A stretch of 64,000 nt of DNA. Source: Paramacrobiotus metropolitanus (lineage: Eukaryota; Tardigrada; Eutardigrada; Parachela; Macrobiotidae). Made by a program: the position numbers and the translations under genes. The notes under the pieces are model-generated. The model worked only from the letters and a program-made list of their open reading frames with translations. It searched no databases and was not told the origin of the DNA. Location of the stretch: NCBI RefSeq assembly GCF_019649055.1, contig NW_026570365.1, forward strand, positions 62,001-126,000, in the 5' to 3' direction. This document shows, piece by piece, positions 1,422-63,920 of this stretch (the stretch's first letter is position 1; each line of letters begins with the position of its first letter).

Positions 1422-4400
1422 GGTTATTTGTACATACCACATTACCTTCCACGATTCCAACGACGGATCTATTCAAATTAATGATTTCCTTATTGAACCG
1501 AATAGCGATTTAGGATGTGGATCGTTTTGTACGTACCACGTAGCGTCGTGTACAAAAGATTTTGGACTGTATGCCATCAAGTCAGTTTCCAAAACGAAAG
1601 CTCAAAGAAACTCCATGCTGTTTAAGTAAGTCTTGCATTCGAAGATTCTGCAAAGTTTGACAATTTTTTGAAGATGTGCTTAGTAGTGCTAAGTGTTTAA
1701 GGGAAGTCGCCCGTGTTCGTGTACATTTCCCCGACAGATCGTTCTTGCACGGATCCGGACTTGCACGATTTTTTTGGAATTTTAAAATAATTTTACAATA
1801 TTTTAAATTCATTTCAATATTTAAAAAACATGCGAGAACAGTGAACATCGTAAGAACGATCTCCATGGCAAGTTCACTTACGTGCAAAGTTTGCAAGAGA
1901 TCGGTCCATAATAAGATTTTAGGCACAAATGAATGCATTGTGTCATAAAGTCCCTTTCGGAATCTTGTTACCGTATCAACTCTTCAACCCGACGGTGCGC
2001 GCGAAAACGGATTTTACGCCTATGTTAACAAATCTTTTGGCCACCCATTGTTGAAAAACGATTCAAAAAAGTTTATGGAAAAGCGCGAAAGCAAACGTTA
2101 CCGTGGATGCGCATGAATTCAGTGCTACGTACCGTACGAGTAATATGTACCTGGCTAAAAAACCCATACAGGTTAAAGCGTTAATGCCGTTCACCGCATT
2201 TTTATTAGGTTTTGTGTTGTCTTGGAAAATGGGAAACTGTTCGAGTTTGCCGCTTGTCAAATTACTAACAGTAACCGTTCATCTTAAATCACAAAACTTC
2301 AGTCTTACTCCGTGATCGAAATACGGTGATTGTTAGAGTACAATATGGGATTAGGAACGGGCCAATTTCGTGGTAGTTTGTCAGTTACCGCTGCATCTGG
2401 CGACAGTTTCTTGAGCACTGGAGCAATACTGCGCCATTGTAGAGTACACTGTATACTGTACACCTGTTTTGGTTATTTAAATGAGTTTTCATTTTAAATG
2501 GTTATTTAAATGGTTTCCATTGTTTTGAAAATCGGAATCCGTATCCGGAAAATCGGAAAATCGTGACGTAGTAACTGATGATAATTTCAGGCAGTCGAAA
2601 AACCCCTTTTACCACATTGAGAGGGAAGCATCCATACTGAAGCAAATTTATCATCCCAACATTGCCAAACTCTTTGAGATCATGGACGATCCGAAAGAAG
2701 ACATCTTGTACTTTGTATTTGAATACATGGATCGTGGTTCCATATTAGTCATTCCAACTGGTAAGTGGTCTTTGGGGGATCAGGAGTTTTAGGTTTATGC
2801 TCGGGTGCGCTGACAAGTATCGCTGACCAGATTAGTTTGAGAAATAGCGGGGTTGACTGCAGCTGATACCATTGGAAAACATGGTCAACAGTGGTACGGC
2901 TTATGTCGCAGTCGCAATGAACGACCTTTTGTTTTGGTTGCAGACGCCCCTTTACAAGAGCCAGTGGCGATATCGTACTTCCGCGATGTAAGTGCAAGTT
3001 CACGAAGTCGATCAACACAACTATAGCACGGCAAAGGACCCAATAACTGTAACGAGCTACAGCGCTCACCCAGCAACTGTAAAATTTTTTAAAGCGCAGC
3101 TGGAAACACACATTGCACTGTGCGTCGGGCAATGTGACTATAAAGGCAATGGAATGACCAGAAGCGGCCACCAATGACCAAAGTAAAAAAGCAAACCTAT
3201 GAAATAGTGAAAAGCTAAGTCGGGAAGGAGGAGAACGATTTTTCTCAACATTCAAGGGGGCGGGCGAAATTTACAGCAAGTTCGTGATCGTTTTGCAAAC
3301 TCCCACAAATTTCGTCGAAGGGTGGGTTTTGCTCTGGGTAATGAATATTATGAGAAGCTGGCATGATTGTGTAATACACGCATTTGATTAAAATCCTTCG
3401 CGAGAAGCCAACGAGCAGGTTGACTGAAAAAATTGTTAGCAATTCAACTGAAAATAACGAATACATTTCTTCTTGGTGATACATGTGCTTTGCTGACCTA
3501 CTCGTACTAAGGTGTTCAGTAAGTTATACCCATTTAAAAAAGACAGCAGTTAAAACCGAGCAGTAAAAAATAGTTGTTGCGTTTTACACTTCGAGTATAA
3601 AAAAAACGGCTGAAAACAAATTTAGTTAACACACCTGTCCCAACTTGGCTGATCAGGGCTGTGTTTCAAATTAATGCCAGAGCGGTCATTTGGTCGCTTA
3701 AGGAAAATTGCCCGGTGCATGGCGTCGAAAATGGGATACATACACTAAAGCTTTCGCTTTCGCGCACTCCAAAATTCAGATCACTATTGTGCACCAAAAG
3801 TCGGGTAATAACCAGATTTTTGGTGCACAACAATGCATTTAAACTTTTCTCCACTTTAGCACGCCATATCTCGACAACCGGATGTTGCACGCGCAAACGG
3901 TTTTCAGAACAATGTATACAAATGTTTTAGCTTTAGAATTACATAAAATATAACAAAAAGGGGATTCGGGGTGCGTGAAAGTTTTAGTGTATGTTTCCCA
4001 TTTTTAACGCTATGTACCCTGCCATTTTCCTTAAGTGGACAACTATCTTAAGTGAATGAGCGATTGTCGTTCAGGTGGCCACCTGAAATATAAAAGTCCA
4101 CAACTAGCTTTTCTTTCGGCTTTTTCGATTCAACAGGGTGTACTCTTCTCAGAGTACCTGAAATTTTTAAAAAGCTAGTTTTTTTGTGGAACTGTAAATA
4201 GCTTTTTCAAAAATTTCTGGTACTCTGTGAAGGATATATCCTGTTTATTTGAAGTTTATTCGAAGAAAAATACCGGCAGAAAATCGAGTTGTGGAGTTTT
4301 CTGTTTCGGAAGGTCGACTTAAACGACCATACGAGTAGATGTTAAGGTTTATCGTACCAGTTCTTTAGTTTCGGCACTGAGAAATCGTGTTTTCAGGTGC

Positions 4401-4546
4401 TGTACGGCGTCGAATATTTGCATTCGAAGAATATCATTCATCGTGATCTCAAACCGGAAAACATGTTGTTAAACTCCTTCGGGAGAGTGAAGTTAGTTGA
4501 TTTCGGCCTGAGTTTCGTCCATGAGGAAGAAAACGATCGGGCAAAG
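1422..4546 (+). CDS. CaMKK-like protein kinase, 5' part (four exons)
   Basis: Ser/Thr kinase of the Ca2+/calmodulin-dependent kinase kinase group, which phosphorylates CaMKI/IV and AMPK. Exons read as 1422-1625, 2591-2760, 2944-2987 and 4397-4546, each with AG before and GT after, and phases that join without a break. Visible elements: a degenerate glycine loop (GCGSFC, third glycine replaced), the VAIK lysine in LYAIKS, the family phrase [11 protein letters not shown], the hinge [20 protein letters not shown], the catalytic loop [10 protein letters not shown] and the magnesium motif DFGLS. CaMKKs usually have an Arg/Pro-rich insert after the VAIK strand; here that link is short and not proline rich. 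The N-terminus is missing. The chain stops at a splice donor (4547) just after DFG, and the remaining lobe is found only on the opposite strand at 5526-6265. CaMKK is the best family match; orthology to a particular member is not claimed. Confidence 0.85.
3697..4036. repeat. Inverted-repeat element (MITE-like) in a kinase intron
   Basis: The left end contains CTTAAGGAAAATTGCC and then ATGGGATACATACACTAAA. The right end, read on the other strand, gives CTTAAGGAAAATGGCAG and ATGGGAAACATACACTAAA. The arms are about 75 bp with scattered mismatches and flank about 190 bp with no coding potential. It lies in the intron between kinase exons 2944-2987 and 4397-4546. No target-site duplication was clear. 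Confidence 0.7.
4092..4300. repeat. Second inverted-repeat element in the same kinase intron
   Basis: Near-complete foldback. The left end reads AAAAGTCCACAACTAGC; the right end on the opposite strand reads AAAACTCCACAACTCGA. The inner arms pair AGAGTACCTGAAATTTTT with its counterpart at 4210-4233. This is a different family from the element 60 bp upstream. Confidence 0.7.
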
Positions 4547-4622
4547 GTAAAGTGGGCCGACCCAGCCACGACTGTATACTTTCTTTATTGTGAAATCATC
4601 GACAAGAGAATGCCGGTTTCAG

Positions 4623-4867
4623 GACAATGACAGCGTCCGTGATTTCGCCAATCATGCGACTTCGTTACTCACCGCTAACTGGATATATGCACCCGTTGTC
4701 ACCATCTTCACCGGTACCGCCGCAGTCCTGCTCAACATATTGGTCCTAAATGCCTTATTGCGACGTGAAAACATGGCCGTGCCCTTTACCGTGTACCTGA
4801 TTAACCTGATGATGGCTAATATTCAGTTTGTTATTTTTGGAAACCCTCTTGATATTGTCAACAGTGG
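4623..4867 (+). CDS. Rhodopsin-family GPCR exon, TM1-TM2 (fragment)
   Basis: A single exon between an AG (4621-4622) and a GT (4868-4869). It encodes a hydrophobic helix with the TM1 pattern [20 protein letters not shown] (the asparagine is the TM1 signature), a short basic loop RREN, and a TM2-like segment [18 protein letters not shown] in which the usual LAxAD is replaced by LMMAN. It starts only 76 bp after the donor of the last + strand kinase exon and lies inside the region separating the two kinase halves, so it does not belong to the kinase. The same-strand TM5-TM7 exons at 14747-15496 could be the rest of this receptor, but no convincing TM3-TM4 exon was found in the 10 kb between. 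It may therefore be an orphan exon. Confidence 0.65.
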
Positions 4868-5164
4868 GTAAAGCACATGGTATTTGGGATGGGCGGTGTG
4901 AACGTTGTATCTGTATGCTTAATGTGTCGTGCAATGCGCTATGGTCTCGGCGCAGGTTAGGGCGCTCTAAAAGATTACGGGAATAAATAAGATGTGTAGC
5001 CTTCCTACTCTATCTGCAGCTATGCGTATTTTTTTTCACTTGACTTTGGCATGGTTGTATCTATGAACAATTTTCGCAGCTATAAACAATCTCGTATTCA
5101 TTTGCGTTAAAATTCTGCTTTATAAGACAGGACAAATAAACGGCCGTATATGAGTAAGTAGTCT

Positions 5165-5290
5165 TTGCCTCCTCCTTCCGTCTTCTTATTTTTGTCAGTA
5201 ACCTTCTCCTTCGCCTTCTCTTTTTGCCTTTTCCGCCTTTTCCTTCTCTTTCCCCTTCCAATTTTTAGGCCTCTGCCTTCTGGCATTTTG
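5165..5290. repeat. Pyrimidine-rich low-complexity tract
   Basis: Runs of CTTCGCCTTCTCTTTTTGCC type. Read on the other strand it resembles the GGCAAAGG-rich repeats at 6694-6835 and 21715-21800, so all three may be one repeat family. Confidence 0.5.
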
Positions 5291-5525
5291 TCATACAGAT
5301 ACTTCAGCTGCCGTGGGCGCTATACTGAATTGACGAGGAATCAGCGATCTCAATAGAAAGCCGGTTGTGTTGACCTTTGAGAACGATAATGACTCCACCA
5401 CATCGTTTTTGAACTTTCCCTCATTACGTTTTACGCAAGTAGTGTCCGAATAATAAAAAGCGTATCGTTACAACTGTAGTACAGTTGTTCATGTACAACA
5501 CCATGCGTTCGATGCCTTCTTGTAC

Positions 5526-6265
5526 TTATGGATCTCTTTGCGGATGTGGATGGTTTTGCATATTATTTAAAAGGACCCAATTGCATGGTTGGAAGGAAAA
5601 ATATTGGCAGGATTTGCAGCGTTCTGGAAGGTAGTGCGAAGAATTTTTCCAAAGAAAAGCCGTAGAAGACAAGATGGCCTTCAGTTGCAGTCGCTCTGCG
5701 ACTATCTTCTCCAACATTCTGGAAAAAAAGCAAAGGCAAGTTTAACAATTTCGTCGATACCAAAACACAATTTTCCGCAAATATGTGTGTCTAATAAGGA
5801 GCCAGCATTCGCGACTTCACCAGTACGATCACAAATGCACCATAACGAAGCAGAAAGATCTTCTAAACTAAAACAGCTTTAAACGCATAAGAGGAATTTT
5901 TCAAAATACGCGAGGTCTGAAAGCCAGAATCAGCTGAAAAACATGCAGAAACAAATATTTTACATAAGAAACACACACAAAATCCAAAAACAGCCATACC
6001 CTTTAAGCAATGCACGGACATTCAGCGAAACCTGGCAGCAAGTTTTTGTGGGGATGACAACTTGGTCCTTCTGAATCATGCGGTAGAGTTGATATAGATT
6101 ATCGTGAACGAAAGGTACTTGTCCAAATAACAATGCGAATAAAGTGACACCCAGTGCCCACATCTCCATGGCCTTTGCGGAGTAACCGCTTGTTATTTCC
6201 TCGTTAAGACATTCGGGAGCGGTAAAGGCTGGCGTACCGTACGGCAGACGAGTAGTACATTTCCT
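5526..6265 (-). CDS. CaMKK-like protein kinase, 3' part (two exons, opposite strand)
   Basis: Two - strand exons, 6265-6000 and 5718-5526, encode the rest of a CaMKK-type C-lobe. The first opens with RKCTTRLPYGTPAFTAPE, matching the activation segment and APE motif, then MEMWALGVTLFALLFGQVPF. The second gives LLKGMLEKIVAERLQLKAIL (kinase subdomain XI with its conserved arginine) and runs to a stop at 5526. The first exon begins in phase 0, exactly the phase in which the + strand half ends at 4546, and the protein joins after DFG with no gap or overlap. The invariant aspartate of helix F is glutamate here (MEMW instead of DxW). The tail after the kinase domain is about 45 residues, with no clear calmodulin-binding helix. 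On the same strand these two exons would finish the gene normally; as written they cannot be cis-spliced. Confidence 0.82.
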
Positions 6266-6693
6266 CTAATTTTAGTTATCGCATTTGTTTTTCTTGTTTT
6301 GAACCCTTTGTTTTGAACCCTACAAAAGAAGGTATTACTGATGTCACATTTTTGCAGCAGTATGTTGCTCTAACAAATGCAATAAAACAACACTAAAACC
6401 ATTGAAGTGTAGGATATTGTAGCGACACGATAACTGAACCTAATTCATTGTGTGGATTTTATTTTTACTTTCGATAACAAATTTTACGGAGTTTCTAAAA
6501 CATCAGGAAGAGGAAAGACATTGTTAGTCAGCGAGTTTTTTAAACTGTACAATGTTCGCACAAGTGAAGATTTCGCAATATGCGATTCCAGGATAAATCA
6601 CTCTTAATGGTTTATTTTTTGTGCGTGCGTACTACTATATATGTACGTGGGACGTCGAAATCGGAAAACTGCCAGGAGGAAGGTAATCATGGC

Positions 6694-6835
6694 GGCAAAG
6701 GCAAAGGTAAAGGTAAAATAGAGAAGGGCAAACTGAAAAGGCAAAGGTAAAGGTAAAATAGAGAAGGGCAAACTGAAAAGGCAAAGGTAAAGGGCGGGCA
6801 AAGGCAAAGTCGAAAAAGGCAAACTGTAAGGGTAG
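6694..6835. repeat. Purine-rich tandem repeat, 40-bp unit
   Basis: A 40-bp unit (GGCAAAGGTAAAGGTAAAAT followed by AGAGAAGGGCAAACTGAAAA) is present twice in full and once in part, followed by GGGCGGGCAAAGGCAAA. The same closing motif recurs at 21775-21795. Long frames across it are an effect of the repeat and do not indicate a protein. Confidence 0.75.
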
Positions 6836-7562
6836 GCCGCCTGTAAGGGTACACTGCAGCAGTATACAGTTCATTTCCTAATTTTTAGTTCAAGCCTACT
6901 GTAGTTAGTGTGGTTGTATACGCACTGTGCTTGCTGTACTGTACTACCGCTGCAATGCATACTGAATTTCATTCTAAAGGGATGTAAATAGAGCGGACGC
7001 ACAGAGCATTCTCGTTCTCTAAAGCTGTGTATAAGCACCACCCTTGTTTCCGCCTCTAAACAAAAAAATTAGGAAATCGACTGTATTCCAAGTTACCAGA
7101 ATCATTGAAAATGCATCTCTGTTATGCGTTTTGAAAAGATATGGCGCACGCGCAGCAGCTAGGGCGGTTCACTACTGTCAAAATTTTTCTACTGAACTGG
7201 CAAAGAATCAGAACAATAGTCGTAATATTTGATGTAACAACAAAGTTTGAACAGGATGACAAGGTTACCGATGTTCAACTAAAAATTTCAAGTCTTTATA
7301 AAATAAAGACATGCACCACCGCGGAGGCTCCATAGGAGCCAGCCAAAAGTGTTTGACACAGCAGTATCAAAAAGGGTAGTATATCACACTAAATCACGAA
7401 TTGCCGATAAATGATAATAACATCGAAGCAGTGGTAACGCAGTCGCATAGCCAAAAAGCTAGAAAGCAGCGCTAGCAGGGAAATTATTTCAACCATAGAA
7501 ATATGGCGTGTCATTTCATACAGTAACTAAAGACTTCACGGTTTTTTTTCCGGACGTGGTTT

Positions 7563-8018
7563 TTATCCGAGAAACCAGTTGGCTCGCGGCGGCACCATAT
7601 ACCGTGAGCGAGATCTTTGGGCAAAGCGGTAGGCCAAAGCTGGATTACGGGGCTGCTCTAGGCCCTCTGAATTTTCCAACATGGCAGCGAGGAACGCTAA
7701 GTTGGAACGTAGCAACGCGGCGGATGCGCTAGATCCGTTTTCTTCGGAGTTTTTGGTGCGGAGAAATTGCGCCGGATATTTTGGGGTTTCTGCAATTTCC
7801 GGCTGGGAGCGGGATTCGATGGCCATCGACGGTTCAGCCCGCTGCATAATGAAAAAGCGTCCTTGCGGCCACGGTTGGACTTGAAGCGAGGACTTGTCCA
7901 TGTTCGTCAACGTCGCTAGAACCCATTGAGACACACTGACCCCCAACAGCGTTACAGTGCCGAGCACAACAACCGCGGCCAGGGTGCGGTGCGCAACACA
8001 TGCTTTGCACTTGCCCAT
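7563..8018 (-). CDS. Small putative secreted or type II membrane protein, 151 aa
   Basis: Not recognised as a known family. The start at 8018 has a good context (AAAATGG). Residues 1-12 are basic and Cys-containing (MGKCKACVAHRT), followed by a hydrophobic stretch LAAVVVLGTVTLLGVSVSQW that would act as a signal peptide or anchor. The rest is polar, with arginine-rich stretches (AQRSRSRYM), and the chain ends in PPRANWFLG and a stop. A terminal glycine after FL, with basic sites upstream, would suit an amidated neuropeptide precursor, but there is only one such ending and no repeated peptide. It could equally be the first exon of a longer gene, since a GT lies in CACGGTATAT near the end. Single ORF, no transcript evidence. 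Confidence 0.4.
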   Translation of the reverse strand: MGKCKACVAHRTLAAVVVLGTVTLLGVSVSQWVLATLTNMDKSSLQVQPWPQGRFFIMQRAEPSMAIESRSQPEIAETPKYPAQFLRTKNSEENGSSASAALLRSNLAFLAAMLENSEGLEQPRNPALAYRFAQRSRSRYMVPPRANWFLG

Positions 8019-11000
8019 TTTAACAAAAGAACAGCAAAATAAGCATGCTCGCAAATTACAGGAACATTGTTTTGGTGCAGATTATCACCGCAAACAAAAC
8101 GTACCCTAGTTGTCGTACGTACTTTCCTTCGCACCCTATATATTCGTAAAATCTGCGCACATTTTAACCGTTCCGCTACGACATTTTAACAACCCCGCTT
8201 CATTTGGGGCGTTGTCCGGTTTGTGCGTCATTATGGGATTTCACTGAGTATTTTAACTCTGTAGTGCGTTTGCGCGATCACAAGTACAACGTCAATTAAA
8301 AAGAAAAGTGCAATAAGGAATAGTGCAATTTTATAACATGGCTGGTGAAGATGACATTGCGTGATGTGCTTGCAAGCTGTTTCCGCCTCAAAATTTCAAC
8401 AGGATGCGCGCTTGAAACAAAAATAAACAGGGATGCATTTTACACCCAAGTGGGATGCTTCCGGATTTAGTTTCCCAATGACTTAATGACCGCCCACCAG
8501 CTCGTATGCGGTAGGGCAAAACGCTCAGCTCTAAATAGACACCTGGCTTTGTACAGATAGATTGCAACTCGTACGCGGTACGCAGGGATTTCGTGGCTGA
8601 GAAGAGGCGGAGAAATGGAAGAAAAGATTTTCGAAGTATGAGCGAAAACTGAAAAACACTGGAAAAGCGCACATTCTGGAAACAGAAAAAATTTTTGCAC
8701 AGTCGACACATAAAAAACGTTTTCGAAATTAATTCTTAAAAAACATACAAATCTGTTACGTTTCCATAAAAACAGAAAATATGAATCCTATAAATTATAA
8801 GCATTTTGTAAACTGATCTGAGACTACTGCAAGACCATTTCTTGTTGCATCGTAAAACGGCAGCCTGTCCGTGCCAGCCCAGTCCAGCAGTACCTGGGTA
8901 ATGCCATAAACATGCTTTATTAGGCATCTGTATCCCAGCTGATTGTTTCCATCTCATGAGAACACCTAAATCGATGCTGACATCACAGTGCCCAATTATT
9001 ACTTCCTAGTTGAGCGACTCAGCAGCATTCTCGTCCGGCAGGCTGCGCATCATGTTTGTCTAAATAATGTTCAATATCCGGTTCGTAATTGGTAACCATT
9101 ACGTACTATGTTGTGATTTTACAAGCCCGTTGCAAAAATCGGGGAAAACTATAACAGTGAAATTCGGTAAAGCCTAGCTTAACCCTCCAGCGGGAGGTAC
9201 CCGAAGGAGTGCGAGTTTCCTTATGAAAATCGGGATTTCCCGATGAAAAAATTCAATTAACAAAGGGAATTTTTTATGAGTTTGTGCTGACCATAGGTCA
9301 GCCGTGGTGACTATGTTGTCGCCTGACGCCAATGCCCATGGACAGTCTACAGCATATAAACGTTTAATTCTGTAATAACTAGTCGAAAAATAATTACACA
9401 AAAGCAACAACTTCATTAAATAGCCCAAAAAAGAACTTTAAAACAGAAGTATAGAAGTGGTCAACGAGTTGACCACTGGTACAATAAATTAAAAATGACC
9501 AAAAGACATTTTCATGCATTTTGACCATTACTACTGTACTGATAAAATATAGATTATTACAGTCACATGGTGCTCCACGAAGCGCTCTTTACAAAGTTTA
9601 ACATAACACTTGCGTCATTTCGGGCACGGCAACCCGCCTTTATGTTTGCTTGTATTGCCTGCGGTTCTATGCTTCCTGGATTGGGCCAGTGGCTACAAAT
9701 GCCATTATCAGAAAAGCGGCGGGGGTAGTCCAGGCTGTCCAGCTGGGTAGGAAAGTAACCCGGAAGTAATGTGCACATCGCCAATGTGCACAGTACAGTG
9801 CGCAATCGTTCTTGTTTGCAATCGCCCGAGTCTAGCCAAAGTTTCCATGTTTTTTTAAAGCTACCCAGCCCCACTTGCTTAGTTTATCCAAGTGATGCAT
9901 CGCAAATGTACGTAGAAACGCGTCAGAGCGTAGTATTGTGCTTCCATTTTACATTGTCATACACACAGTTTCCTCGAACGTGTTGCTGTCTGAACTCTGA
10001 AGGCTGACAACCTTCGAGACAATTTTACTATTTTGAAGACCGCCCGGGGAGCTGATCCGCAGAAGCGCTTTTTGCCAGCTCGCGATAACCGGAACGGTGT
10101 GGCGCATGTCTCCTTACAAACCGACAGCAACTTGATCCGGTTACGTTATAAAGAGCTGATGTCGAAATTGCACCCGCCCGTGTATTCAGGACCCTTCATG
10201 GGCAATGGCGTCAGCCGACGACACACGTTTTTGACGGACTGTGGTCATCTATGGTTCAACCTACAGTGTCCGTGTTAACCGTTTTTAGATAAAGCGTTCT
10301 CAGGTGTACCTTGTGGATTTATCTCCGGTTTAATTATTCATTCACTAATTAATTAATGAGCAAGACCTACGGCAGCTAGAAAAGTCCAAAATTAACGATA
10401 TTTGCGGACCTGTCGTTAGTAATTAACTTGAGACAAAGGCTTCAATTACGTTTTTACTGCTGCTTCGAAGTCCCCTTTTGCTTTTTGTGCATCGGGATAC
10501 CGATTAACTGTTTCCGATCACTGGGAAAAAAATCCCAAACACCTTGTCGTCGCCTGACGCCAATGCCCGTCAACGGGTTAAGCCATTCAAGGTACTTCGG
10601 CACGTCACTCTACTGTTCGTTCGTCACTCTACTGTTCCATTGCGGTGTGGGGTAGGCTACATAAACAGTATAGGACAGCCTGACTGTGTGCTCTACGAAG
10701 GCATCCAGTGCAGAGTAGCTAGATAAAATCTAGCCTTACTACTGGAGCGCATTCGTGATTCTCGCCGAGACTGCAGACTGGCAGTGTGTCATTTTGACGT
10801 CACTAACAAACAGGGATATTACAGTGCGCCAACAGGAGAATCATGCATTCGCTCTGTTTCTGTTCGTGTGCTGTCATATGGGCGGTGGTGTAATACCGTG
10901 GCCATAGCACTAGCGCTTGATTTAAGAATACTGTAAACATTTTGATCACACGTTTTTTGCTCGTTTGCAAAGGATGGTTTTTTTGTGAATTTTCATGTAT

Positions 11001-51576: not shown

Positions 51577-52303
51577 CGGCACAGCCGGGAACGGCACAGC
51601 CGGGAACGGCACAGCCGGGAACGGCACAGCCGGGAACGGCACAGCCGGGAACGGCACAGCCGGGAACGGCACAGCCGGGAACGGCACAGCCGGGAACGGC
51701 ACAGCCGGGAACGGCACAGCCGGGAACGGCACAGCCGGGAACGGCACAGCCGGGAACGGCACAGCCGGGAACAACACAGGAACAACACAGTAAGAACAGC
51801 AACAGCACAACCGGGAACAACAGCAGGAACAACACGGAACAACACAACCGGAACAACACAAGCCGGGAACAACTGCCGGGAACAACACAACCGGAACAAC
51901 ACAGCCGGAACAACACAATGGAACAACACAATGGAACAACACAACCAGAACGGCACTGCCGGAACAACACCGAACAACACCCGGAACAACACAGCCGGGA
52001 ACAACACAGCCGGGAACAACACAGAACAACACAAGAACAACACAATAGGAACAACACAGCCGGAACAACACAGCCGAACAACACAGCCGGAACAACACAG
52101 CCGGAACAACAGCCAGGAACAACACAGCCACAACACAGCCGGAACAACACAGCCGGGAAACGCACAGGGGAACGGCACAGCCGGGAACGGCTCAGCCGGG
52201 AACGGCACAGCCGGGAACGGCACAGCCGGGAACGGCACAGCCGGGAACGGCACAGCCGGGAACGGCACAGCCGGGAACGGCACAGCCGGGAACGGCGCGA
52301 CCG
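51577..52303. repeat. 15-bp tandem array (CGGCACAGCCGGGAA)
   Basis: Thirteen near-perfect copies at 51577-51771, a degenerate middle rich in GGAACAACACAGCC, then about nine more copies to 52303. The unit has no stop codon in any of six frames, so pentapeptide-repeat frames appear on both strands (for example GTAQP, RERHS, NGTAG; AVPFP on the other strand). Confidence 0.9.
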
Positions 52304-62499: not shown

Positions 62500-63920
62500 A
62501 CCACAGTACTTTCAAAGTATTGCTTTACTTCGCAGTACTGCTATACTTTAAAATGCCCCAGAACTTAATCGTCAGTTTCGGCCTGTTCAGGGATGTTCGG
62601 GAAGGTCACCTTGGTACTGAAAGTAATACAATACTTTCAAAGTATTGCATTACTTTCGAAGAACTGCCATACTTTCAATTGCCTCAGCACTTAATCGTCA
62701 GTTTCGGCCTGTTCGGGGATGTTCGGGAAAGTCACCTTGGTACTGAAAGTATACAATACTTTCAAAGTATTGCATTACTTCCAAAGTAATGCAATACTTT
62801 AAAAATGCCACAGCACTAGATCGTCTGTTTCGGCCTGTTCGGGGATGTTCGGGAAGGTCACCTTGGTACTGAAAGTTATGCAGTACTTTAAAAGTATTGC
62901 ATTACTTTCGAAGTACTGCCATACTTTCAAATGCCTCAGCACTTAATCGTCTGTTTCGGCCTGTTCGGGGATGTTCGGGAAGGTCACCTTGGTACTGAAA
63001 GTAATACAATACTTTCAAAGTATTGCATTACTTCAGAAGTACTGCAGTAGTTTAAAATGCCTATGCGCTTGATCGTCTGTTTCGGCTTGTTCGGCGATGT
63101 TCGGGAAAGTCACTTTGGCACAACAATACTTTGAAAGTACTGTTGTACTTTCATAATACTGCAATACTTTAAAAGTACAGGAATACTTTAAAAGTATTCC
63201 TGTACTTTAAATACTTTAAAAGTACTTTAAATACTTTAATACTTTAAATACTTTAATACTTTAAAAACTTTAATACTTTAAATACTTTAATACTTTAATA
63301 GTATTCCTGTACTTTTAAAGTATTGCATCACTTTTAAGGACAGCAATACTTTTCAAGTATTGCTTTTAAAGTTTTGCAGTACTTAAAAACGCCTCAGCGC
63401 TTGATCGTCTGTTTCGGCTTGTTCGGAGTTGTTCGGGAAGGTCACTTTCGCCCAGCAATACTTTGAAAGTACTGTTGTACTTCAGAAGTATTGCTGTACT
63501 TTTCAAGTACTGCAATACTTTAAAATGCCTCAAGGCTTTATCCTTTGTTTCGGCTTGTCAAAGTGCAAAATGTAACTCTAAAGTGCTGCTGTACCAATGT
63601 GACCTTCCCGAACAGCGCCGAACAAGCCGAAACTGACGATCAAGCGCTGTACTGCAATACTTTAAAAGTAATACTTTAAAAGTATTAGTACTAGAACTAC
63701 AACCATAGTACTACAACTCGGCGACGACAATACTTTAAGTATTGCAATACTTTAAAAGTGCATTAATACTTTAAAGGTATTGCTGTACTTTAAAAGTAAT
63801 GCAATACTTTAAAATGCCTCAGCGCTATATCGTCTGTTTCGGCTTGTTCGGCGTTGTTCGGGAAGGTCACTTTGGCATAGCAGTACTTTGAAAGTACGGG
63901 TGCACTTTAGAAGTATTGCT
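62500..63920. repeat. Satellite with a unit of about 126 bp
   Basis: The conserved core GATCGTCTGTTTCGGCCTGT continues into TCGGGGATGTTCGGGAAGGT and CACCTTGG. The word GTTTCG recurs at 62575, 62701, 62827, 62953 and 63079, an exact 126-bp spacing; later copies at 63411, 63547 and 63836 are irregular, and one is inverted near 63600-63640. Between cores lie palindromes such as CAGTACTTTGAAAGTACTG and AATACTTTAAAAGTATT. The array probably continues past the window. Confidence 0.88.

Follow-up and report, generated by a model that had tools for sequence, protein, structure and literature searches.

In the mod(mdg4) gene of Drosophila, parts of one protein are encoded on opposite strands at a single locus, and small inversions are described as likely in the history of that locus (PMC4528330). 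A second kind of case is the human chromosome 19 inversion that breaks ZNF257, which is attributed to end joining between transposable elements and is accompanied by a fusion transcript (PMC4591017). Both bear on a window (the whole stretch analysed here) of 64,000 bases from the tardigrade Paramacrobiotus metropolitanus (RefSeq assembly GCF_019649055.1, contig NW_026570365.1; C145:62001-126000 in our contig numbering). The window carries a kinase resembling the CaMKK family, with the N-lobe to the DFG motif coded by exons of the plus strand and the activation segment to the stop coded by exons of the minus strand. Comparison with the assembly (169.8 Mb in 533 contigs) suggests, with a probability of about 0.84, that an inversion of ~1.72 kb (4538-6256) cut one of four CaMKK-like copies. 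The locus thus looks like an ordinary recent gene-breaking accident and not like a gene that is read from both strands.

The kinase halves and their relatives

Kinase exons occur on both strands (Table 1), and the four introns between exons of the same strand start with GT and finish with AG, which bears out the split of a CaMKK-type kinase over both strands described in the initial annotation. The first exon in the window begins with the third base of a codon opened in an upstream exon, and further kinase exons lie to the left of the window, at ~C145:60.7-61.3 kb, where a public gene model has its ATG at C145:60993. Amino acid identity of this first exon is 71-78% to the paralogues C49 and C8a and lower to C8b. 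The final residues and the stop of the window's last exon are unlike those of the paralogues, and may represent early decay.

Three colinear paralogues are present in the assembly, two of them on contig C8 (~2056.5-2058.3 and ~2061.6-2063.9 kb) and one on contig C49 (~936.8-939.1 kb). In all three, the point at which the window copy is split lies inside a single exon of 398 bases (HEEGND-(T/I)TRLPYGTP). Homology on the plus strand stops at 4536-4537 (HEEEND) and begins on the minus strand at 6256 (TTRLPYGTP), so that the two pieces of the window, 141 and 257 bases, add up to exactly 398 with an overlap of 0-1 base; one T at 6257 can be assigned either to the exon or to the adjoining repeat. 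Re-inverting one block restores the gene exactly, with an unbroken frame (HEEEND/TTRLPYG), and at the protein level the Hypsibius exemplaris homologue continues through the split point with zero extra residues. As judged by this fit, the halves are most likely parts of one gene, as the initial annotation had proposed.

The same annotation had named a second intact CaMKK gene, with each half a separate paralogue fragment, as grounds for abandoning its reading. Intact paralogues do exist, but their base-exact agreement with the window halves is hardly expected of separate fragments. Two truncations in opposite directions would have to end within ~1 base of each other, for which we estimate a chance of ~0.3% over ~950 coding bases. 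Duplication of the family to four copies, with a close pair on C8, offers material for such fragments, and separate codon fits of the halves differ: in the N-half C8b is nearest, by 1.7 log units, and in the C-half C8a, by 3.8. These topology preferences are weak, however. The inner branches are short, conversion among the copies might account for the preferences, and the length of the window branch differs little between the halves (0.58 and 0.72). Fitted together, all 271 codons place C8a nearest to the window copy, by 1.8 log units. Two independent fragments of two paralogues are therefore a very improbable explanation, and descent of both halves from one gene is retained here.

With regard to family identity, a PDB search with the joined protein of the initial annotation returned CaMKK2 (three) and CaMKK1 (one) as the top four of 60 distinct sequences listed among 2695 matched. 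In a midpoint-rooted protein tree of 14 chosen rows, with fungal PKA as the only other kinase family included, the tardigrade sequences formed a clade (98/99) separated from the three fungal PKA rows (100/100). Within it, the window copy was placed with its three paralogues (89/92, no resolution inside the group) and Hypsibius outside them (98/99); the Hypsibius and P. metropolitanus copies with which it groups are mostly named CaMKK-like. Among the six insect and nematode rows are one with the name Lok-like and one without a name. CaMKK proteins have an Arg/Pro-rich insert between beta-3 and alpha-C, and a C-terminal autoinhibitory, calmodulin-binding segment. By eye, the stretch between beta-3 and alpha-C has 24 residues in the window copy and is similarly short in the whole copies, for which reason the label 'CaMKK-like' was chosen, and sequence comparison shows that the whole relatives stop shortly after the kinase domain. 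CaMKKs are thus the best solved relatives of the window kinase by sequence, whereas the latter differs in its short beta-3 to alpha-C stretch, its short C-terminus and its break. The four P. metropolitanus copies, apart from Hypsibius in the tree and with two neighbours on C8 (2056-2064 kb), are joined by an additional CaMKK-like gene at C26:225.7-227.1 kb.

Repeat DNA at the breaks and the proposed inversion

Directly after the exon break on the plus strand, the 26 bases 4538-4563 match the tips of a transposon-like repeat at five other loci (L056, L057, L058, L066 and L069) at 96%. The tip pattern has 63 matches in the assembly at no more than two mismatches, the window's own included, and a reversed control has 0. 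Beside the minus-strand break lies the body of the same repeat family, which starts internally (at base 377 of L058 and 383 of L056); its first base, 6257, could instead be exonic, and its right end near 6841 was set by eye. Of 12 loci fetched for the family, 11 have inverted ends (the exception is L059). Among 13 printed loci, visual inspection identified target duplications of 8-10 bases in five (L053, L054, L056, L057 and L060; the remainder were not counted). Because of the inverted ends and flanking duplications in these other copies, the family is called a putative DNA transposon with terminal inverted repeats.

The repeat tip supplies the GTAAAG donor at 4547. By sequence comparison, the donor, the TTAG acceptor preceding 6265 and the border residues RAK and RKC are all repeat DNA, so that the apparent splice sites and their phase-0 match are by-products. 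The exon limits of the initial annotation are accordingly shortened: kinase sequence stops at 4537 and not at 4546 on the plus strand and starts at 6256 and not at 6265 on the minus strand, with 4538-4546 and 6257-6265 assigned to the repeat. Its claim that an intron of matching phase 0 separates the halves does not hold, since none of the three colinear paralogues has an intron there and the borders are repeat DNA.

These borders bear directly on trans-splicing of opposite-strand transcripts, which would rebuild the kinase as in Drosophila mod(mdg4). There are GT and AG dinucleotides near the breaks in one frame, and the inversions described as likely for mod(mdg4) would suit such an origin. 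In addition to the intronless paralogues, however, the proposed acceptor GATAACTAAAATTAG lacks a pyrimidine tract, in contrast to TGCTTTTTTTCCAG and similar sequences at the true introns, where kinase acceptors end in TTTCAG, TTGCAG, TTTCAG and TTTCCAG. The product would also gain six residues (RAKRKC) in the activation segment, and a search of proteins of 84-266 aa (E up to 1e-20) gave three matches with no C-half protein of this contig among them. As the splice-junction argument fails, trans-splicing loses its main support and is very unlikely.

When the block is turned back, the 398-base exon is restored and the repeat tip adjoins the repeat body in the same orientation, its outer end facing outward as expected of a left end. 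The exon fit and the repeat at both joins give good support to one option of the initial annotation, a recent inversion that kills the gene. One break would have fallen inside the exon coding the stretch from DFG to APE, and the other in downstream sequence belonging to the transposon-like repeat family. After joining, the N-terminal exons would lie on the plus strand, facing the terminal 26 bases of the repeat. The minus strand would carry the activation segment and C-lobe, next to the repeat body. Neither half should then be able to yield a whole kinase domain, and the copy is most likely a recent pseudogene that would have lost its function; three paralogues keep whole reading frames and presumably back it up. 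Breaks placed in an exon and in a repeat, together with the loss of repeat bases at one of the joins, resemble end joining, which we infer as the repair route. When 3400-7600 was searched without gaps, no inverted repeat longer than 23 bases linked the block to its surroundings or one side of it to the other.

Several observations weigh against an inversion of this simple form. About 350 repeat bases are missing at the second junction (350 relative to L058, 356 relative to L056), and the sequences flanking the window's tip and body do not match as a target duplication (left GTCGTGGCT, right TGTAAGGG). The turned-back junction has 0 matches in other copies in the assembly at up to three mismatches, and the halves differ, if weakly, in their nearest paralogue, as given above. 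The missing bases, the lack of a target duplication and the lack of a copy with this junction indicate that the second break did not pass cleanly through a single full element; a deletion or the involvement of two elements may account for it.

Other routes were considered and set aside. For the same three reasons, a single element cut in two is unproven. An inverted duplication from staggered breaks, suggested by an overlap of 8-10 bases with GGAAATG beside the C-half, was rejected as those bases are repeat interior, and recombination between inverted repeat ends (similar tips at 5140-5293 and ~6680-6830) as the breaks fall outside those tips. A 10-base match, AGTATACAGT, flanks the element on both sides and was judged to be chance, its right copy being part of the end of a repeat resembling a miniature inverted-repeat transposable element (MITE).

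Two further repeat families occur at the locus. The family with tip GGCTATATATGAGT has elements of ~1.9-3.1 kb on C50, C114, C13 and C47 (L062-L065). The MITE-like repeat at 6854-7086 has partial DNA matches on C191, C104, C236, C66 and C52.

Table 1. Features at the split kinase locus, in window coordinates.
Positions	Strand	Feature	Basis
1422-1625	+	Kinase exon: N-lobe, glycine loop, beta-3 lysine	Translation, splice sites
2591-2760	+	Kinase exon: alpha-C to hinge	Splice sites, paralogue comparison
2944-2987	+	Kinase exon of 44 bases	Splice sites, paralogue comparison
4397-4537	+	Broken exon, 5' part, 141 bases: HRD loop, DFG, up to HEEEND	Paralogue DNA homology stops at 4536
4538-4563	+	Outermost 26 bases of transposon-like repeat with inverted ends; 4563 is its outer end	Repeat tip comparison
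4538-6256		Putative inverted block, ~1719 bases	Turning back restores exon and repeat tip/body orientation
4581-4957	+	Decayed rhodopsin-type G-protein-coupled receptor (GPCR) exon, start ATG lost, three stops in relative's frame	80% DNA identity to C96:80903-81280
5140-5293		Terminal piece of another repeat family, also with inverted ends (tip GGCTATATATGAGT)	Repeat comparison
5526-5718	-	Final kinase exon, stop at 5526-5528	Splice sites, paralogue comparison
6000-6256	-	Broken exon, 3' part, 257 bases: TTRLPYGTPAFTAPE to LLKG	Paralogue comparison
6257-6841	+	Body and worn right end of the tip's repeat family	79-84% to L056/L057 from 6308 on
6854-7086		MITE-like repeat, ~230 bases, 23-base inverted ends, outside the inversion	Inverted-repeat search

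Timing of the break and fate of the locus

The age of the break was approached with a codon model of the four copies (271 codons of exons 1 to 5; the last exon, uncut for paralogue C8b, was omitted). Omega was 0.15 on the window's branch and 0.16 elsewhere, and a neutral window branch was worse by 34 log units. By half, the window branch and the remaining branches had values of 0.18 and 0.14 for the N-half and 0.12 and 0.21 for the C-half. Purifying selection thus acted on the window's branch with about the same strength as on the paralogues, which indicates that the break is recent. The cost of a neutral share of the window branch was 0.7 log units at 0.05, 2.1 at 0.10 and 3.9 at 0.15, and by interpolation the neutral period would occupy less than about 9% of that branch, if both halves went neutral at the inversion.

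Such strong constraint on both halves also fits an allele that is barely broken or unbroken, as would be the case if the animals had an intact gene and the arrangement stemmed from faulty assembly, or from retention of just the inverted haplotype of a heterozygous inversion. The published assembly is described as made with Canu keeping heterozygosity and merged to haploid by HaploMerger2, at coverages of 45x Nanopore and 62x Illumina (PMC8277472), and the merging step could have discarded another haplotype. At that Nanopore coverage and the stated read N50 of ~17 kb (PMC11191345), many reads should cross 1.7 kb. Against an artefact or heterozygosity stand the lack of long inverted repeats around the block noted above and the nature of the joins, which resemble end joining. 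Moreover, a single near-identical site in the assembly was found for each kinase exon (candidates scored: 150 of 559 in one search and 53 of 53 in another). No sign of mis-assembly was seen. We consider this explanation unlikely, and we infer that the inversion is a feature of the animal's genome rather than of the assembly alone.

A different fate for the N-half is suggested by the decayed GPCR exon within the block. Its relative on contig C96 scores above the Pfam 7tm_1 cut-off (35.2 bits) and the window piece below it (15.8), and a tblastx search of the window for further GPCR exons with C96 gave, beyond the decayed exon, weak matches only, the best near 14.5 kb. The public protein P0005 (372 aa) joins the kinase N-half, via the repeat donor, to this piece (ENDRAK/DNDS...VNSG); the intron spanned has 76 bases (4547-4622), and the final 82 residues are GPCR sequence. 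A newborn fusion gene, in which the N-half is transcribed and its repeat donor (4547) is spliced to an acceptor that arose by chance in the GPCR exon (4622), is compatible with the inversion, which would have brought the GPCR piece onto the plus strand, and P0005 carries exactly the expected junction. The predicted product would contain the kinase N-lobe and catalytic loop followed by two membrane helices. On the other hand, P0005 may be a mere gene-finder product, and it is probably the product of a gene model; the acceptor arose at the position of the relative's start codon in an exon with three in-frame stops, and the protein would be without APE and C-lobe. The existence of such a fusion gene is therefore doubtful. 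The bolder proposal that the inversion made, in one step, a new gene for a membrane-anchored and catalytically dead kinase from the repeat donor and the GPCR-exon acceptor also seems rather improbable.

If true, a membrane-anchored truncated kinase could interfere with its three whole paralogues, and an expressed fusion would be a fresh tardigrade case of gene birth by inversion. The public model P0005 is flagged here, as its last 82 residues derive from another, decayed gene.

Elsewhere in the window, an open frame on the minus strand (7563-8054) contains MGKCKACVAHRTLAAVVVLGTV, and its start resembles a membrane anchor; DNA relatives at C145:128.5 and 143.0 kb, on C81 and on C52 mark it as one of a multicopy family. 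A GC-rich tandem array at 51577-52296, with ~50 copies of the 15-base unit CGGCACAGCCGGGAA, lies within a GC-rich stretch at 48-56 kb. Dense tandem repeats on AATACTTTAAAAGT-like units occupy 62503-63814, including a 126-base unit present ~5 times.

Comparison with known systems

The analysis corrects an attractive opposite-strand reading of this locus. Like mod(mdg4), in whose history small inversions are described as likely, the window holds the parts of one protein on opposite strands at one locus. In mod(mdg4), however, splicing unites parts that are transcribed as separate precursors (PMC4528330), whereas the window kinase is cut inside an exon and its seeming splice sites are repeat DNA, so that its parts do not end at true exon-intron borders. 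A phase match at a strand switch can come from repeat sequence at the joins of an inversion, and paralogue comparison settles such cases.

The closer parallel is probably the ZNF257 inversion, in which one breakpoint disrupts a gene and a fusion transcript arises at a breakpoint (PMC4591017). That inversion, as described, spans 415 kb, is polymorphic and has demonstrated transcripts, while the one proposed here spans 1.72 kb, breaks a coding exon and is known from sequence only. By analogy with the published description of ZNF257, the window locus may be seen as a small further case of a gene-breaking inversion of this type.

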